Shown here: in pieces, positions 16,753 to 26,684 of the stretch
How positions within the stretch are numbered: position 1 is the stretch's first letter
How the letters are laid out: each line of letters opens with the position of its first letter
Source: Candidatus Lambdaproteobacteria bacterium RIFOXYD2_FULL_56_26
GTDB taxonomy: Bacteria > SAR324 > XYD2-FULL-50-16
NCBI GenBank assembly: GCA_001783715.1
Contig: MFNF01000040.1
Coordinates: 1-64,000 of the forward strand
Length of the DNA stretch: 64,000 nucleotides
Direction of reading: 5' to 3'
Translations under genes and position numbers: made by a program
Notes under the pieces: generated by a model
Databases searched by the model: none
What the model was told of the DNA's origin: nothing
Seen by the model: the letters and a program-made list of their open reading frames with translations, nothing else

Positions 16753-19512
16753 ATGACCTCTTTTCCTGAAGTCCTTTCCGTTTCTCGGTATTCGGACCGG
16801 CGGCTCAAGTTTCTCACTTGGGTGGCGTTGGTCTTCTGGACCGTTCTGGTCTTGGTTTCCCTGCAAATCAACCTCGCTCGGGAGAAGTGGATTTCCACCG
16901 AGTTGGCGCTCACCGCCGCAAGGTCCGCCTTCAACAAGGATTTGGCCATTCGGAGTTGGGCGGCCAACCACGGAGGGGTCTATGTCGAGGTGACCCCCAA
17001 GACCCAACCGAATCCTTACCTTAAAGCCAAAGAACGGGACATCTTCACCCCTTCGGGGCGGCACCTGACCTTGATGAACCCGGCCTATATGTTCCGGGAG
17101 GTGTTGGAAAACTATTCAGAGGCCTACGGGATTTACGGCCGTATCATCAGCCTCAAACCACTGAACCCTACCAACGAGCCGGACCCCTGGGAACGGTCGG
17201 CCCTGACAACGTTTGAAGGGAAAAACACCACCGAAATTTGGGAAAAAACCACCTACAAGGGAGCCCCCTTCTTGCGGTTGATCAAGCCGCTGGTGGCCGA
17301 AAGGCCTTGCCTGACCTGCCATGAACAACAGGGGTATAAGCTTGGGGATATCCGTGGGGGCATTACTGTTTCGGTTCCCTTGGAGCCTTACCAAAGGATC
17401 GAAGCCCGGCAGATCCACGAACATATCCAGACCCATATCCTGTTTTATCTGGTCGGTTTGGCCGCCATTGCTCTGTTTGCCCGGCTGTCTAGGCGGGACC
17501 TGGGCCGGATCATCCGGGCCGAACAGGCGCTGACCGCATACCAAAGCCATTTGGAAGAAGAGATCGAACGGCGCACCTTTGATGCCCAAACGGCCCGCAA
17601 ACGGGCCGAAGAGGCCAGCGCCTTCAAGGCCAGCTTTCTGGCCAACATGAGCCACGAGATCAGAACCCCCTTGAGCGGGGTGCTCGGGGTTGCCAATCTG
17701 CTCAACGACACCAACTTGGACCGGCAGCAAAAAGAATTGGTCGAGACGATCCTCTACAGTGGGGATTACCTCCTGATGATTGTCAACGAGGTTTTGGACC
17801 TCTCCAAGATTGAGGCCGGCAAGCTGTCCCTGGTCATTGCCCCCTTGGAGCTGCGGGCGTTGGTGGAAGAAACCCTGGACCTTTTTGCCCTCAAGGCCAC
17901 CGAAAAACGGATTGAATTGCTCCAGGTGTTTGACCCGGACACTCCGGCCTGTATTTTAGGGGACAAAAAACGGATCCAACAGGTGTTGATCAACCTGATC
18001 GGCAATGCCCTCAAGTTTACCGAAAAAGGGGAGATCGTGATTTGGGTCAAACCTGCCGGTCCTAAGAATTCGGGGCAACTGGAGTTTCGGGTAGCCGATA
18101 CCGGGCCGGGGATCGGCAAGGAAGCCCAAGCCTCCTTGTTTGAAGCTTTCACCCAACTGCAACCGGAGAAACACCCCGGCACCGGTTTGGGGCTGAACAT
18201 CTGCAAACACTTGGTTGCCTTGATGGAAGGGCGAATCTGGGTGGAGAGCCAGTTGGGGGTTGGGTCTCAGTTTTGTTTTACCCTCAAGGCCGAACCGGCC
18301 CCGGTGGGCGAGGAGCTGGCCCAACTGTTCCGGTTGGAAGCCCTAAAAGAGCTTAGAATTCTGGTCTGGAGCCGTCACCAAACCTTGGGCAAGGCGGTGC
18401 AATCCTTGACCCAACCCTATGGGGCCCAGGTGATCACCGCCCACAGCCAAAGTGAGGTGTTTGACGACCTGGAGCTTTGCGCCGCCCGGTGCCTCCTGTT
18501 GGTGGACCTGCCAGTGGAGGAGGTGGAATTGTCCCGGTTTAAGGTCGCCTTAACCCAAACCGGGCGCAGGCTTCCCCTGGTGGGTTTGAGCTTCTTGGGG
18601 GAAACCCAAAGTTTGCCCGATGGGGCTTTGTTGTTGCGAAAACCGCTGAAGTCCAGGCCGCTTTTGGGTGCCTTGACTGGGGCGGGGTTGGGCACCGAGG
18701 CCCCCAAGGAAGGGCTGCCGCCTGCCCCCAAGGCCCTGCCGAACTTGGCGGAACTTTATCCCTTAAAGATCCTGCTGGTGGAAGACAACCAGATCAACCA
18801 GACCTTGGTCCTCAAGATCCTAGAAAAGTTCGGCTACCGAGCGGACGTGGCCAATGATGGGCTCAAGGCGGTGGAACTGGCGGCCCAAGGTTTTTATGAC
18901 CTGATCTTTATGGACATCCGCCTGCCGGTGCTCAACGGGATCGAGGCGACCAAGCGGATATTGGCCCACGGCATCTTCGCCACCGCTCCGGTGGTCATCG
19001 CCATGACCGCCAACCTGCTTTCGGGGGAACAGGAAGAATATTATGCCGTAGGCATCAAGGACTTGGTTCCCAAGCCGGTCCTGCCCGCCAACCTGGGGGC
19101 GACCTTGGCCTTCTGGGGCCGGAGCATCAAAAAGCAAAGGCACCTGCAACAGATCGACCTGCCCGGCTCCAATCCGGCCCTGGTCAACCAAGAGGTGGTT
19201 ACCTCCAGGATCGGGGTGGGCGGCGAGTTTTTTGGCCAACTTTTCCGGGGCTACCAGAAAGAGGGCAGCCGGACCTTGGTCGAGTTGGAAAAGGCGGTCT
19301 CCTCGGGTGCCGATGTGGAGGCGATGCGGTTGGCCCACTTTTTACGGGGCCTGAGCGCCAACATCGGGGCCGACCAGATGGCCCGGCTTTGTTTTGAGCT
19401 GGAGGTGGAGTCCAACAACGGGGACCTGAAAAAAATGTCCGCCTACCTGTTGGAGCTGGGGCGGCTTTTTGAGCAAACCTGTGAAGAATTGCAGAAAAAC
19501 GAGACCCCTTAA
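16753..19512 (+). CDS. Hybrid sensor histidine kinase: Tll0287-like/DUF3365 heme-type sensor, HisKA, HATPase, REC, Hpt
   Basis: CLTCHEQQGYKLGDIRGGITVSVPL; FLANMSHEIRTPLSGVLG; DTGPGIG, GTGLGLNICK; ILLVEDNQINQ...DLIFMDIRLPVLNG; Hpt-like AHFLRGLSANIGA. Confidence 0.9.
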   Translation: MTSFPEVLSVSRYSDRRLKFLTWVALVFWTVLVLVSLQINLAREKWISTELALTAARSAFNKDLAIRSWAANHGGVYVEVTPKTQPNPYLKAKERDIFTPSGRHLTLMNPAYMFREVLENYSEAYGIYGRIISLKPLNPTNEPDPWERSALTTFEGKNTTEIWEKTTYKGAPFLRLIKPLVAERPCLTCHEQQGYKLGDIRGGITVSVPLEPYQRIEARQIHEHIQTHILFYLVGLAAIALFARLSRRDLGRIIRAEQALTAYQSHLEEEIERRTFDAQTARKRAEEASAFKASFLANMSHEIRTPLSGVLGVANLLNDTNLDRQQKELVETILYSGDYLLMIVNEVLDLSKIEAGKLSLVIAPLELRALVEETLDLFALKATEKRIELLQVFDPDTPACILGDKKRIQQVLINLIGNALKFTEKGEIVIWVKPAGPKNSGQLEFRVADTGPGIGKEAQASLFEAFTQLQPEKHPGTGLGLNICKHLVALMEGRIWVESQLGVGSQFCFTLKAEPAPVGEELAQLFRLEALKELRILVWSRHQTLGKAVQSLTQPYGAQVITAHSQSEVFDDLELCAARCLLLVDLPVEEVELSRFKVALTQTGRRLPLVGLSFLGETQSLPDGALLLRKPLKSRPLLGALTGAGLGTEAPKEGLPPAPKALPNLAELYPLKILLVEDNQINQTLVLKILEKFGYRADVANDGLKAVELAAQGFYDLIFMDIRLPVLNGIEATKRILAHGIFATAPVVIAMTANLLSGEQEEYYAVGIKDLVPKPVLPANLGATLAFWGRSIKKQRHLQQIDLPGSNPALVNQEVVTSRIGVGGEFFGQLFRGYQKEGSRTLVELEKAVSSGADVEAMRLAHFLRGLSANIGADQMARLCFELEVESNNGDLKKMSAYLLELGRLFEQTCEELQKNETP

Positions 19513-20513: not shown

Positions 20514-21173
20514 TCAGGGGGTTTTTTGCAGCAACAACAAGACCCCGCCGAAGCCCAACTCCAGTTGGTAGGGTAGGGCTTTCTCTAGGCTCCAGCCCCC
20601 TTGGGCTTGCAGCTCCCCCCACTCTTCTTCCCAGTTTTTCCCCTTCCAGGCCCAAAGCCTTCCTCCGGGCTTCAAAAAGACCGCTGCCCACTGGCCCAGT
20701 TCAACCAAGGAACTCAACGCCCGGGCCAGGACAAAGTCCTGGGTCCGGGCCAGCCCCGCCTCTTTGGCCAAGTCTTCCAGCCGCACCTGTCTGGCGACAA
20801 AGTTTTTGAGCCCCATCCGGGTCCGGGCGGTTTCTTGGAAGTTGACCTTTTTTAGCACCCCTTCAATCGAGAGGAACTCGACTTCCGGCAAACAAAGAGC
20901 TAAAATTAAGCTAGGTAGCCCTGCGCCTGACCCCAAGTCCATCCCTCTCCCTTGCAGCAACGGTCCCAAACCTAAACCCAGGGGGGCCAGTGCGTCCAGG
21001 AGGTGTTTGGCCACTTGGTTCTCAAATCCCTTGACCGAAGTGAGGTTGAACCTTTGGTTCCACTGGTCCAAAAGCTCCAGATACAAGGCCAGGGAGTCCA
21101 GCTGGGTCTCGGTTAAGGCGAGGTCGGGGAAAACTTTTTTGGCAGATTGGGCAATTTGGTTTGTTTTTCGCAT
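20514..21173 (-). CDS. rsmG: 16S rRNA (guanine527-N7)-methyltransferase RsmG
   Basis: LLDQWNQRFNLTSVKGFE..VAKHLLDAL; MDLGSGAGLPSLILALCLPEVEFLSIEGVLKKVNF; ARALSSLVELGQWA. Confidence 0.92.
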   Translation of the reverse strand: MRKTNQIAQSAKKVFPDLALTETQLDSLALYLELLDQWNQRFNLTSVKGFENQVAKHLLDALAPLGLGLGPLLQGRGMDLGSGAGLPSLILALCLPEVEFLSIEGVLKKVNFQETARTRMGLKNFVARQVRLEDLAKEAGLARTQDFVLARALSSLVELGQWAAVFLKPGGRLWAWKGKNWEEEWGELQAQGGWSLEKALPYQLELGFGGVLLLLQKTP

Positions 21174-21305: not shown

Positions 21306-22793
21306 ATGGCGAAGGCAAGTGAAATGGATCTGGACCTGGACTTGGACATGGATCTGGACGGGAACGAGGGCTCCGGTGACCTCGGCCTTGAGGATGACCT
21401 CGACCTAGGCTCGGACCTGGGCACAGACATGGATCTGGGTTCGGATCTGGACCTTGGCGGCGACCTCGGCGGGGATGAAGAAGAGGCAGACTTTGGCTCC
21501 ATGGGTGGCGACGAGCCCCTGGATGGGGGAGATGACTTTGGCACGGACCTGGACCTGGGGGCTGAGGACGACCTGGATGCAGGTTCGTCCGGCAACGAGG
21601 ACTTGACCGTGGACATGAGCGGCCTCGAAGACGAATTGGGTTTGGACGACTCCGATCTAGCCCCACCTTCCAAAGGTGGAGCGATCAAAGAGGTGGAGTC
21701 GGACGATGAACTGGACCAGGAATTGGCCAGCCTCAACGATGACTTGGTTTTGGACGAAAGCCTGGAAGTCCAGGAAGTGGAAGGGGCCGACGATGCGGAG
21801 TTGGCCTTTGAAGGTGACCTGGGGGAAGAGGAGGACAGCTTCGGTTCCGCTCCCCAGACCGAAGAAGAGGAATTTGCCGAACCTCCGACCTTGCCCGAAG
21901 ACACTCTGGTGGACCTTTCGGACAGCGAGATGGAGCTTTCCAGCAATTCGGGCGAACTGTTGGAGGAAGAATTGGAAACCCCCCTGCCCGATGACTTGGA
22001 CATGGGTGCCGGATTTGAGGACGACCTGTCGAGCAACTTTGACGACGACCTGGGCTCGGCTGCGGTGGCGGAAGATTCGGTGGAGGAAACAGAGGAAATC
22101 GAAGCGGTGGAAGAAGTGGAAGACCTGGAACCGGTCCCGATGCTGGACATGGACGACAACTTCGACCTGGGCGACGAGCCTGAAGCGATCGATGAATTTG
22201 CCGCCTTGGAGGAAGAGGAACTGCCCCCTCCGCCCAAGGACTTTGAAACCCACCGGACCCCGGCCAAGCCGGCCAAACCTGCCGTTCCCGCCCCTTCTTT
22301 TGAGGAAGAGGAAATGGAATCCGGCTTTTCGGACCCCGAGGAGTTTGAATCGGAAGACCGCAGTGAAATGGCTTTTGAGGACCTGGAAGAACCCCAGGAG
22401 TTTACCCCGCAGATCCAAGACGAAACCAATGGCTTTGAGATTGAAGAGGCCCCCAAGGCCCAACGGATGAAGGTGGACCTCTCCCCTGAGCCGGTGGCCA
22501 GACCGAGCCTCAAGGTCCCCGGCCCCTCTTCCCAGCCCGCTCCGGGGGCCGAAGGGTTGGTGGGCAAAAACCTGCTGTACAAGATTCCCCACCAGTTGAA
22601 GGTGGAAATCGGCCGGACCAATCTGACCGGGGAAGACCTGACCCGTCTCAATTATGGTTCGGTGATCGAGTTGGACCGCAAGGTCGGCGACCCGGTGGAC
22701 ATCGTTTTGGGCGGCCAAGTGATCGCCAAGGGCGAGGTGGTCCAGATCAACCAAGAGCAGTTGGGCGTTCGAGTGACTAGGATCGACTTTTAG
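21306..22793 (+). CDS. FliN/SpoA-domain protein with very long acidic N-terminal extension
   Basis: C-terminus LLYKIPHQLKVEIGRTNLTGEDLTRLNYGSVIELDRKVGDPVDIVLGGQVIAKGEVVQINQEQLGVRVTRI is FliN/SpoA-like; remainder Asp/Glu/Leu/Gly-rich. Confidence 0.85.
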   Translation: MAKASEMDLDLDLDMDLDGNEGSGDLGLEDDLDLGSDLGTDMDLGSDLDLGGDLGGDEEEADFGSMGGDEPLDGGDDFGTDLDLGAEDDLDAGSSGNEDLTVDMSGLEDELGLDDSDLAPPSKGGAIKEVESDDELDQELASLNDDLVLDESLEVQEVEGADDAELAFEGDLGEEEDSFGSAPQTEEEEFAEPPTLPEDTLVDLSDSEMELSSNSGELLEEELETPLPDDLDMGAGFEDDLSSNFDDDLGSAAVAEDSVEETEEIEAVEEVEDLEPVPMLDMDDNFDLGDEPEAIDEFAALEEEELPPPPKDFETHRTPAKPAKPAVPAPSFEEEEMESGFSDPEEFESEDRSEMAFEDLEEPQEFTPQIQDETNGFEIEEAPKAQRMKVDLSPEPVARPSLKVPGPSSQPAPGAEGLVGKNLLYKIPHQLKVEIGRTNLTGEDLTRLNYGSVIELDRKVGDPVDIVLGGQVIAKGEVVQINQEQLGVRVTRIDF

Positions 22794-22802
22794 GTATCCC
22801 CC

Positions 22803-23759
22803 ATGGCCTTTGAAACTACCGTTCCCCTGGACCTGAGCCGGGGCGAGTCCATCACCTCCGGGTACTACACCCCTTTGGAAGTGGTGGTCAAAAACTACTT
22901 GAGCGAACTGGAGTCCTACTTTTTTGACCAGTTCCACATTTCCTGTGTCTTTGACTTTCGGATCGACCCGGCGGGCAAGTTCCAGGAATACCTGGGCTCC
23001 ATCGCCCAACCGACCCCGATTTTCGTGGTCAATTTTTCGACCTTAAAAGACGATGCTCTGCTGGTCATGGACAATCCACTGGCCAACCTGTTTTTGGAAC
23101 GGGAAGAGCTAGTCCGGCAGGGCCGAGCGAAGGTGCCCAAGGGGTTTGCCGTGGACCTGGAAAACTACCCCCGGCTGGAAGAGGGAATCAGCCAATTGGT
23201 GGGCCTGTTCGCCAAGAGTTGGTCTCGGTTGCAAGACTGCGACCACCGGATCTCCAAGTTGGTCAGCCACCGGATCAAGGCCAAGATCATGGCCCCCGGC
23301 GAATCCTGCCTGAAGGTCAAGGTAGGGCTTGCCTACAAGGGATTTTCCAGTGGATTTGAATTCTGTTTTTCCGCCTTTGGGATGGACTTGTTTTTAAAAT
23401 CTTATGGCCGCCAAGCCCTGCTGATGGGCGAACGGACCCAGCCTACCCCTAACTTGGAGCCGCTGCGCCGGTTGATCGAAACCGAAGCGGAGTATCAGGC
23501 CACTGCCGTTTTGGGAGAGTTGTACCTCTCTCGCCAGGACCTGGAGCGTTCCCTCAAAACCGGGATGGTACTGCCGGTCAAAAGTGGGCTCAAAGACCAA
23601 ATCGCCGTGTTGGTCAACGGCCTGCCGTTGTTCTCCGGCGAGCCGGGAGAAAGCCTGGGCCACCAAGCGGTGCTGGTGCAGGGCAGGATCGATGAGGTTC
23701 GCCAAGAACTCAAGCGCCAGCCCAAACCCTTTGCCAAAACCCACTACCCCAAGGGTTGA
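22803..23759 (+). CDS. FliM-like protein (middle domain plus C-terminal SpoA domain)
   Basis: FliM-like pattern (LSELESYFFDQFHISCVFDF...FQEYLGSIAQPTPIFVVNFSTLKDDALLVMDNPLANLFLE) and C-terminal SpoA-like ATAVLGELYLSRQDLERSLKTGMVLPVKSGLKDQIAVLVNGLPLFSGEPG. Confidence 0.75.
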   Translation: MAFETTVPLDLSRGESITSGYYTPLEVVVKNYLSELESYFFDQFHISCVFDFRIDPAGKFQEYLGSIAQPTPIFVVNFSTLKDDALLVMDNPLANLFLEREELVRQGRAKVPKGFAVDLENYPRLEEGISQLVGLFAKSWSRLQDCDHRISKLVSHRIKAKIMAPGESCLKVKVGLAYKGFSSGFEFCFSAFGMDLFLKSYGRQALLMGERTQPTPNLEPLRRLIETEAEYQATAVLGELYLSRQDLERSLKTGMVLPVKSGLKDQIAVLVNGLPLFSGEPGESLGHQAVLVQGRIDEVRQELKRQPKPFAKTHYPKG

Positions 23760-24397
23760 CCTTGGGCCAGTCGAGCTTCGATCCGGGCTACCTGGGCCTT
23801 GAGGTCCGGGGCACCCAACAGCCCCTCAATCATAGCTACCGAACGTTGCCCGGTGTTTAAAACCTCCGGCAACCGTTCCCACTGGATGCCGCCAATGGCC
23901 ACCTGCGGGAGGCCGATTTCTTTTGCCGTCCAAGCCAAAAACCCCAGTCCCGCTTCCGGTTCCTCCGGTTTGGAGGGGGTCGCATAGGCTGGCCCCACGC
24001 CCAAATAATCGATCCCCAGACCCAACGCCGCTTGGGCTTGGACCCGGTTGTGGGTGGAGAGCCCCAACGCAACCTTAGGCCCCAACAGTGCCCTGGCCCG
24101 GGCCGGGTCCAGGTCCCCTTGGCCCAAGTGCAGGCCATCGGCACCGCTTAAAAGGGCCAAATCCAAGTGGTCGTTGACTACCACCCAAGCCCCTCTCTCC
24201 CTAGCCCAGGGGACCAATGCCAGCAGTTCGGCCCGTTGTTGTTCCCAGGGCAGGTCTTTACCGCGGTACTGGACCAACCGGACCCCCGCCTCGACCATCG
24301 CTTGGGCGCAATCCTGGTGGCTGGCCCAGCGGTAGCGCAGGTCGGTGATCCCGTACAGGTGCCCTTGGGCCAAAAACTGGGCCAGAGGATGAACCAA
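23744..24397 (-). CDS. thiE: Thiamine-phosphate synthase
   Basis: YGITDLRY; VQYRGKDLPW; VNDHLDLALLSGADGLHLGQGDLDPARAR; GLSTHN; DYLGVGPAYATPSKPE; AIGGI; TTG start inferred. Confidence 0.9.
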   Translation of the reverse strand: MVHPLAQFLAQGHLYGITDLRYRWASHQDCAQAMVEAGVRLVQYRGKDLPWEQQRAELLALVPWARERGAWVVVNDHLDLALLSGADGLHLGQGDLDPARARALLGPKVALGLSTHNRVQAQAALGLGIDYLGVGPAYATPSKPEEPEAGLGFLAWTAKEIGLPQVAIGGIQWERLPEVLNTGQRSVAMIEGLLGAPDLKAQVARIEARLAQGQPLG

Positions 24398-24476
24398 AAT
24401 GAACCTCCAGAGAAGTTGCTTCTGTTTTACGGTTGAATAGGTTAGTCTGACTGCAAACCTTCCAACCCCACTGTAA

Positions 24477-26684
24477 ATGCCGGTTGAACTTCCACCACTT
24501 GAGCCTTTTGCCAAAGAAGGCCAAACCCTAGAATCCGCCAAAAAGCGGGTTTTAGAAGGGAAAGTTACGCCCGAGGCCTACCAAGAACTGTTGGAAGCCT
24601 ACGACAAGCTTTACCGGCAGTTTTCCCAGATGGTCAACATCAACGACCAAAGGCAGGCCGAATCCAGGGAGATCAAGGCCAAGCTGGAAGAGGAACTGGA
24701 GCTGCGCAGGGCGGCGGAAAAACAGTTGCAAGCCCAAGAGGCCGAACTGAAACAGGCCAAGGAGCTGGCCGAGCAGACCTTGGCGGAACGGGCGATGTTT
24801 TTTGCCTCCATGAGCCATGAAATACGGACCCCCTTGGCCGGGGTCGTAGGTTGCGCCACCCACCTCCTGCACACCGAGGTCACCCAAGACCAAAAGGATT
24901 TTTTGGGCACCATCCTCACCTCCTCGAACATCCTGATGAGGTTGATCAACGATCTCTTGGACCTGAGCAAGATCGAGGCCGGTCAACTGGCCTTGGAATC
25001 CCAGCCTATCGACCTGGAGGTCCTTCTTGAGGAGGTGATTGAACTGGTGGGCGTGGCGGCGGCGGACAAGGGGCTGGAGCTGATTCCCCAGGCCCAGGCT
25101 CTGCCCTTGGTCCGGGGGGACCAGACCAGGTTGGTCCAGGTGCTGGTGAATCTGGTTTACAATGCCATCAAGTTTACCCCCCAAGGACAGATAGAGCTGG
25201 GGGCGGAACAAGCGGGGGAGGAGTTGCGCTTTTGGGTCAAGGACACCGGAGTCGGAATCCCCCCGGAGCAGCAAAAGAACCTGTTTGCTCCGTTCAAACA
25301 GGCCGACAATTCGGTCGCCCGCCGGTATGGCGGCACCGGGCTGGGGCTCTCGATCTGCAAAAAGCTGGTGGAACGGTTTGGCGGTAGGATTTGGTTTGAA
25401 AGCGATGTCAAGCAAGGGACGACTTTTTGTTTCACCCACCCCCTGGAGGTTGTCGGTCCCAAGCCGGAGCCCTTTTCCCCCAAGGCGTTGGCCGGAAAAA
25501 GGCTGTTGCTCCTGGAGCCCAACCTTGCACTCCAAACTTGGCTGTTGGGGCTTTGCCAAAAGGCGGGGCTGGCGGCTACCGGTTGCGCCGAGCTAGGCCA
25601 AATGGAAGGATGGCTCGCCAGCTCGCAGCCTTTTGACCTGTTGGTGATCGACAAGACCACACTGGCTGGTCCTTTGAGAGGAGGGTTGGCCTCGTCGTTC
25701 TCCCGATTGCCCAAGTTGTTCCTGGAACTCCCCCACAATCACAATAAGGAGAGCGGCGAAACCGGCACGACCAATGAACAACGGTTGTTGAAGCCGATCA
25801 AGTCCCGTCCCTTTTTGAGCGCCTTGGAACAACTGCTCCAAGGTCCCTCGACCCCAGAGCCCAAAAACCTGGGCGGTCCGTTGCCCAACTTGGCCTTGGA
25901 GTTTCCCTTTACGGTTCTGGTGGCCGACGACAACGAGATCAACCTTAAGGTAACCCAAAGTGGATTGAAGCTCTTGGGTTATGACTCGGAGGAAGCGACC
26001 AACGGGGTCGAGGTGATGGAACGGTTGGCGGAACGGGAATTCGACCTGATCTTCATGGACATGGAAATGCCCGAAATGGACGGGCTGGATACCTGCCGGA
26101 TCATCCGGCAATCCTGGCCTTCCAAGGTCAGGCCTTTGATCATCGGACTCAGCGCCAACAGCGCCCCGGTGCACCGGCAAGTCTGCCTGGACCACGGGAT
26201 GGACGACTTTGTCACCAAACCCCTGCCACTCGCAAAACTTGGCCATCTGTTGGCCAGTTGGGGCGCAAAGGCCAAAGGGGACCCGCTCTTCCGGTTTGTC
26301 GCCTTGCAGCAGGACTATGAGACTTTTGAAGAATTCATGTTGTTGGACCTGCCCTTTGTTGAAACCCTCAAGCGGGGCTACAGCATAGAATTGTTGGAAC
26401 ATCTTGCCGAGCTTTTCCAAAAGGAACTTGCCAATGCGGGGCCAAAATTCCGGGAACTGCTTGGAAACCGCCGGTGGGAGGAGCTCTGCTCCTTGGCTCA
26501 CAAGTACAAAGGCTCCTGCTATAATTTGGGTGCTTCGAGGTTGGGGAATATCCTCGCCCAAATCGAAGCCCTGGCCCGAGAGGGCAAAGGGGAACCCTTG
26601 CCCGGTCTGCTGGAGAATTTTGACCACAACTTTGCCCCCACCTTGGCCAAAGTTGCAGCCGCCTTCTTGGTGCCCAAGGATTGA
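24477..26684 (+). CDS. Soluble hybrid histidine kinase (coiled coil, HisKA, HATPase, REC, Hpt)
   Basis: FFASMSHEIRTPLAGVVG; DTGVGIP, GTGLGLSICK; VLVADDNEINLKV...DLIFMDMEMPEMDGLDT; Hpt-like LAHKYKGSCYNLGA. Confidence 0.92.
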   Translation: MPVELPPLEPFAKEGQTLESAKKRVLEGKVTPEAYQELLEAYDKLYRQFSQMVNINDQRQAESREIKAKLEEELELRRAAEKQLQAQEAELKQAKELAEQTLAERAMFFASMSHEIRTPLAGVVGCATHLLHTEVTQDQKDFLGTILTSSNILMRLINDLLDLSKIEAGQLALESQPIDLEVLLEEVIELVGVAAADKGLELIPQAQALPLVRGDQTRLVQVLVNLVYNAIKFTPQGQIELGAEQAGEELRFWVKDTGVGIPPEQQKNLFAPFKQADNSVARRYGGTGLGLSICKKLVERFGGRIWFESDVKQGTTFCFTHPLEVVGPKPEPFSPKALAGKRLLLLEPNLALQTWLLGLCQKAGLAATGCAELGQMEGWLASSQPFDLLVIDKTTLAGPLRGGLASSFSRLPKLFLELPHNHNKESGETGTTNEQRLLKPIKSRPFLSALEQLLQGPSTPEPKNLGGPLPNLALEFPFTVLVADDNEINLKVTQSGLKLLGYDSEEATNGVEVMERLAEREFDLIFMDMEMPEMDGLDTCRIIRQSWPSKVRPLIIGLSANSAPVHRQVCLDHGMDDFVTKPLPLAKLGHLLASWGAKAKGDPLFRFVALQQDYETFEEFMLLDLPFVETLKRGYSIELLEHLAELFQKELANAGPKFRELLGNRRWEELCSLAHKYKGSCYNLGASRLGNILAQIEALAREGKGEPLPGLLENFDHNFAPTLAKVAAAFLVPKD

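Follow-up and report, generated by a model that had tools for sequence, protein, structure and literature searches.

A conserved, divergent FliN/FliM pair of SAR324 bacteria as a candidate accessory module of the flagellar C-ring

Two adjacent genes in a 64,000-nucleotide stretch of DNA (contig MFNF01000040.1, positions 1 to 64,000; hereafter the window) from the SAR324 bacterium Candidatus Lambdaproteobacteria bacterium RIFOXYD2_FULL_56_26 encode proteins that resemble the flagellar switch components FliN and FliM. An earlier note, made from the letters of this DNA, had described the pair as isolated from any flagellar cluster, and the locus raises the question of whether a C-ring module has here been put to another use. 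The contig that carries the window, C40, belongs to a 3.08-Mb assembly that is 97% complete. The FliN-FliM order and the rsmG and thiE flanks given in the note agree exactly with the coordinates of the open reading frames (ORFs), and the two frames, designated fliN* and fliM*, are separated by 9 bp (Table 1). Consistent with the statement that the window holds no other flagellar gene, no further match to FliMN_C, FHIPEP, FliG_C, YscJ_FliF_C or MotA_ExbB was detected on the window's contig. The locus is also flanked by two hybrid histidine kinases (HisKA-HATPase-REC-Hpt), one with a Tll0287-like sensor (window 16753-19512) and one whose position is kept in the relatives G003 and G005 (24477-26684).

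Table 1. Features of the fliN*/fliM* locus (positions in the window)
Feature	Position	Strand	Evidence
rsmG, syntenic anchor common to the motAB-linked f4 loci; outside the module itself	20514..21173	-	GidB 117.9 bits
fliN*, FliN-like protein, 495 aa, pI about 4	21306..22793	+	ORF, FliMN_C, TIGR02480, PDB FliN 1o6a
Acidic N-terminal tail of FliN*, 410 aa, 35% D+E, 3% K+R, no Cys	21306..22535	+	Composition
SpoA (FliMN_C) domain of FliN*	22572..22784	+	E 1.3e-19
fliM*, FliM-like protein, 318 aa, without CheY-binding N-terminus	22803..23759	+	Profile, TIGR01397, tree
Middle domain of FliM*, with the CheC-like FliM fold and a replaced GGxG loop	22869..23402	+	AlphaFold2, Foldseek, loop alignment
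SpoA domain of FliM*	23487..23690	+	E 3.7e-9; 35.2 bits
FliM*-specific C-terminal tail motif, here FAKTHYP	23730..23750	+	Alignment, 21 FliM* vs 20 FliM
thiE, other flank of the pair	23744..24541	-	ORF

The SpoA domain that had been recognized at the C-terminus of FliN* was recovered by Pfam (FliMN_C, residues 424-493, 67.8 bits against a cut-off of 23.8), and the protein was matched by the FliN structure 1o6a with an E value of 6.5e-14. Pfam detected no CheC domain in FliN*. Like canonical FliN (TIGR02480), FliN* has a C-terminal SpoA domain that is closest to FliN. However, it carries an acidic tail of 200-670 aa in place of the short N-terminus, its gene precedes that of its FliM partner instead of following it, and its score of 73 bits against the FliN equivalog model lies below the cut-off of 84.05. 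The tail is a property of the relatives as well as of the window protein: across 15 genomes it spans 204-673 aa, with 22-47% D+E, 0-4% K+R and no Cys. An Asp-rich N-terminus resembling that of FliN* was also observed in a protein of unknown function that is encoded a few genes away from a canonical FliN gene, both in the window genome, G000 (L039 10595-11686), and in G003 (L122 10357-11421).

In FliM*, Pfam detected the SpoA domain (residues 229-296, FliMN_C 35.2 bits against the same cut-off), and the FliM middle domain scored 19.2 bits, under its cut-off of 27. A FliM* profile built from 17 relatives matched Salmonella FliM (8umd_C) over the full length with an E value of 5.3e-21. The AlphaFold2 model of FliM* (mean pLDDT 81) was matched by Foldseek to the FliM middle domain 4fhr_A (TM 0.89, rmsd 2.2 A, 182 columns) and to the full FliM 8umd_C (E 5e-19). 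Since the full-length profile match and the structural match coincide, the similarity to FliM reported for this protein is real and not a product of chance.

FliM* has the architecture of canonical FliM (TIGR01397, PF02154+PF01052), with the middle-domain fold followed by a SpoA domain in the same order, but departs from it in several respects. Against the FliM equivalog model it scored 60.3 bits, below the cut-off of 219.6, as compared with 340.5 bits for the canonical FliM with which it coexists in one genome. The CheY-binding motif, whose absence from the window protein had already been remarked upon, is found in 18 of 20 FliM and in none of 21 FliM*. The GGxG motif is present in all 20 FliM and absent from 19 of the 21 FliM*, including the window protein; the tetrad in the loop of the other two, both from family f4 (L021 and L027), may be a remnant or may have arisen by chance within a glycine-rich loop. 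A new C-terminal tail, F-x3/4-[WFYL][PGS], occurs in every FliM* (21/21) and in no FliM (0/20), and the FliY-type phosphatase motif [DS]xxxExxN was found in none of the FliM* aligned. GGxG and EHPQ are the contact motifs between FliM and FliG (PMC4642947). Because GGxG, one half of this contact, has mostly been lost, the sequences suggest that FliM* is unlikely to dock onto FliG in the usual mode.

Elsewhere, the window genome encodes a canonical flagellar set: a FliM on C43 with the motifs LSQDEVDSLL and GGTG, together with three proteins of the FliN type on C1 and single copies of FlhA and of a FliF-type protein. In the contig region of the canonical FliM, ORFs resembling flagellin, FliS and FliD were read by eye. 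Thus, the pair is not the sole FliM/FliN set of this genome, and fliN*/fliM* constitute a paralogue set. The PF01618 matches comprised one MotA-type protein (C15) and three short proteins of ExbB/TolQ length. Since the genome combines a flagellum with a single MotA-type stator, this stator very likely serves the flagellum.

Two features of the canonical set were observed in passing. The three FliN proteins are distinct paralogues (G000:C1:554291, C1:493441 and C1:316863), and the same is true of G003 (L122-L124). FliM and FliN stand at 1:3 in the C-ring, a stoichiometry that makes the number intriguing. In addition, one and the same FliG sequence is cut by two contig ends of the window genome (G000:C34:1-120 and G000:C47:16034-16153). 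Because two contigs terminate inside one FliG sequence, the genome probably contains two near-identical FliG copies that break the assembly; two canonical FliG genes are present in the relatives G003, G001 and G002.

The distribution of the pair was determined by profile search. At E <= 1e-57, FliM* was detected in 40 of the 52 genomes that belong to the SAR324 class, and the 331 genomes from outside it yielded none; the best matches there stood at 1e-38 or weaker, on the scale of canonical FliM. Most absences within the class correspond to incomplete genomes or contig breaks. The clearest real absence is that of G010 (89% complete, 1.5 Mb), which retains a flagellum and f4-type MotAB and in which FliM* was not found; either the pair is therefore dispensable, or G010 is incomplete. 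FlhA was present in 51 of the 52 genomes. The flagellum being universal in the class, co-occurrence of FliM* with it cannot discriminate between explanations.

Conservation of the gene neighborhood, which had been named as a check, extends to the pairing itself: in every locus read, across families f1, f3 and f4, FliN* lies directly upstream of FliM*, with gaps of 1-106 bp. In a maximum likelihood tree of 41 proteins, FliM and FliM* were split at 100/100, and FliM* formed one clade that was grouped by family, a pattern to be expected if the copy is ancient and has been passed on vertically. The FliM* branches were much longer than those of FliM, indicating faster evolution. A decaying relic was rejected, as the fold, the pairing, the acidic tail and the C-terminal tail are kept across the class. 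The pair is undescribed in the literature searched, which consisted of open-licence papers. It is real, conserved and, in this sample, SAR324-specific, and represents a variant of FliM/FliN, not a new category.

Genetic linkage of the pair to motor genes was observed in the sister family f4. In L088 the gene order is motA-motB-fliN*-fliM*; in L089 and L090, rsmG is inserted on the opposite strand between motB and fliN*; and L098 shows the 5' part of the motA-motB-rsmG-fliN* arrangement as far as its contig reaches. rsmG adjoins the pair in loci of both f1 and f4, including the window's own family. Since this flank is common to the window's family and f4, the loci are syntenic. No flagellar gene adjoins the pair in the f1 and f3 loci read, and in G028 (97% complete) the pair is present elsewhere, unlinked to motAB, and MotA is divergent. 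In a MotA tree, f4 MotA fell in the clade of the window genome's only MotA, a group whose internal branching order is partly unresolved, and apart from both MotA1, of the fliL-fliN cluster, and MotA*, of the clusters around the FliG-like protein FliG* described below.

The order motA-motB-fliL-fliM-fliN is a known flagellar gene cluster, and the f4 order is similar to it. However, the f4 locus lacks fliL and export genes, is mostly split by rsmG, and carries a MotA from a different clade than that of the SAR324 fliL-fliN cluster. In several f3 genomes, two similar MotB genes stand in tandem behind one MotA (L106 4821-7001, L108 6575-8740 and L115), which suggests heteromeric stators.

Flagellar genes have been reported to be scattered over the SAR324 genome (PMC4782131), and another study recorded flagellar motility genes in every SAR324 genome that it covered (PMC9031357). 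Such scattering being normal in SAR324, the isolation of the pair alone implies no new function. Thus, the description of the pair as isolated holds for the window's contig but is weak as evidence, and in f4 the pair adjoins motA-motB.

A rival partner is encoded in the same lineage. FliG* is a membrane protein of ~600 aa in which an FliF-RBM3-like periplasmic domain and a transmembrane helix are joined to FliG_M and FliG_C. In many relatives (L078-L083 and L087) its gene lies in a cluster that also encodes a separate MotA, a MotB/OmpA protein and lipoproteins/TPR proteins, of which one matches YscJ_FliF_C; the window genome encodes a divergent FliG* (L076 9360-11153; G000:C57). By Foldseek, FliG* matched FliG (E 6e-9) and the FliF S-ring/RBM3 (E 5e-3), with a low AlphaFold2 pTM of 0.29. 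The cluster possibly specifies an export-less rotary machine.

The pair could be the C-ring of such a second machine, built on FliG* with its own MotA/MotB. FliG* has FliG_M, FliG_C and the periplasmic RBM3-like part, and both sides of the FliM-FliG contact deviate from the canonical form, EHPQ having become (D/E)EPxK/R in most FliG* copies and GGxG having mostly been lost from FliM*; the divergent FliG* of the window genome is consistent with this. However, profile searches detected FliM* without FliG* in the near-complete genomes G016 (99%), G028 (97%), G012 and G015, and in G005 (98%) FliM* is accompanied by at most a weak partial match to FliG*. FliG* was thereby ruled out as an obligate partner of FliM*/FliN*. 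Moreover, the pair was never found inside a FliG* cluster in the loci read, and the stator-linked pairs adjoin a different MotAB clade. We consider this explanation distinctly improbable, and the same applies to the broader proposal of a second, separate C-ring, whether it sits as a stack upon the flagellar motor or belongs, at least in FliG*-bearing genomes, to a non-secreting FliG* machine with dedicated MotA/MotB. The type III secretion sorting platform that the earlier note had raised is far more remote still. SpoA domains do occur in SctQ, and FliN* scored 52.6 bits against the SctQ model TIGR02551, but this is below both the cut-off of 100.8 and the score of FliN* as a FliN. In this genome, the FlhA/SctV family and YscJ_FliF_C are each represented by one protein, both of the flagellar type. 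With one FlhA and low SctQ scores, a platform of a non-flagellar system is refuted for the assembled window genome.

Two further explanations place the pair within the ordinary C-ring or away from the motor altogether. Surplus SpoA proteins in a single ring are known (PMC6946799), and FliM*/FliN* could replace a share of FliM/FliN in one C-ring in the manner of FliY/FliN in Campylobacter jejuni; two f4 FliM* keep the GGxG tetrad, and SAR324 genomes have three FliN paralogues besides. Simple substitution in a FliG-bound ring is nevertheless hard to reconcile with the loss of GGxG from 19 of 21 FliM* and of the CheY-binding motif from all 21, with the much faster evolution of FliM* than of FliM, and with a FliN* partner bearing 200-670 acidic-tail residues, and such subfunctionalization is unlikely. 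The elements that bind CheY and FliG have both been lost, and flagellar genes do not adjoin the pair in f1 and f3; this would also suit a cytoplasmic scaffold that has left the motor for a task such as cell polarity or division. Against this stand the f4 linkage to stator genes with its common rsmG synteny and the normal scattering of flagellar genes in SAR324 (PMC4782131), which leave this role improbable.

The explanation that we favor, at a little under even chances, is that FliN*/FliM* is a paralogue of the switch pair, inherited vertically and specific to SAR324, that would serve the single flagellar motor as an accessory C-ring module blind to CheY; this module is probably stator-related. 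The earlier proposal of a repurposed C-ring module is upheld insofar as the pair is of the C-ring type, diverged and distinct from the canonical set. A move away from the flagellum appears less likely than a role as an accessory motor part, because SAR324 flagellar genes are scattered and the f4 pair adjoins motA-motB.

The fold, the pairing and distribution of the genes, the loss of motifs and the linkage to stator genes are computed; from them we infer the following place and role in the motor. FliM* and FliN* would pair via their SpoA domains, as in normal C-rings. FliM* would remain outside the primary FliG-bound ring and would join the existing C-ring via SpoA/FliN contacts, forming an additional layer or a scaffold. 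The acidic tail of FliN* and the C-terminal tail of FliM* would serve to bind partners, for which the stator or its surroundings are the most plausible candidates, and the module may thus tune stator engagement or C-ring stability, not the direction of rotation. By analogy, the closest published parallel is the C-ring of Campylobacter jejuni, of which extra SpoA paralogues form part, dividing its work (PMC6946799). As in SAR324, surplus SpoA proteins there stand beside one flagellar system, with scattered genes. However, the extra protein in Campylobacter jejuni is FliN/FliY, whereas SAR324 duplicates the whole FliM-FliN pair, without the CheC-type phosphatase motif.

Should the accessory-module explanation prove right, a marine lineage that is abundant and uncultured would carry a complete additional FliM-FliN module in which neither CheY input nor FliG docking, the two features usually held to define FliM, has been retained, and C-ring scaffolding and stator handling would be naturally split from switching. 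SAR324 is also a place to seek unusually elaborate motors: the genomes inventoried hold three FliNs each, and the lineage has several clades of MotA as well as FliG proteins anchored in the membrane. In G042 (L096 6384-11010 and 11684 onward), a FliG*-MotA-MotB cluster is immediately adjoined by an ORF that by eye resembles a contractile tail sheath and by others that resemble a tail tube.
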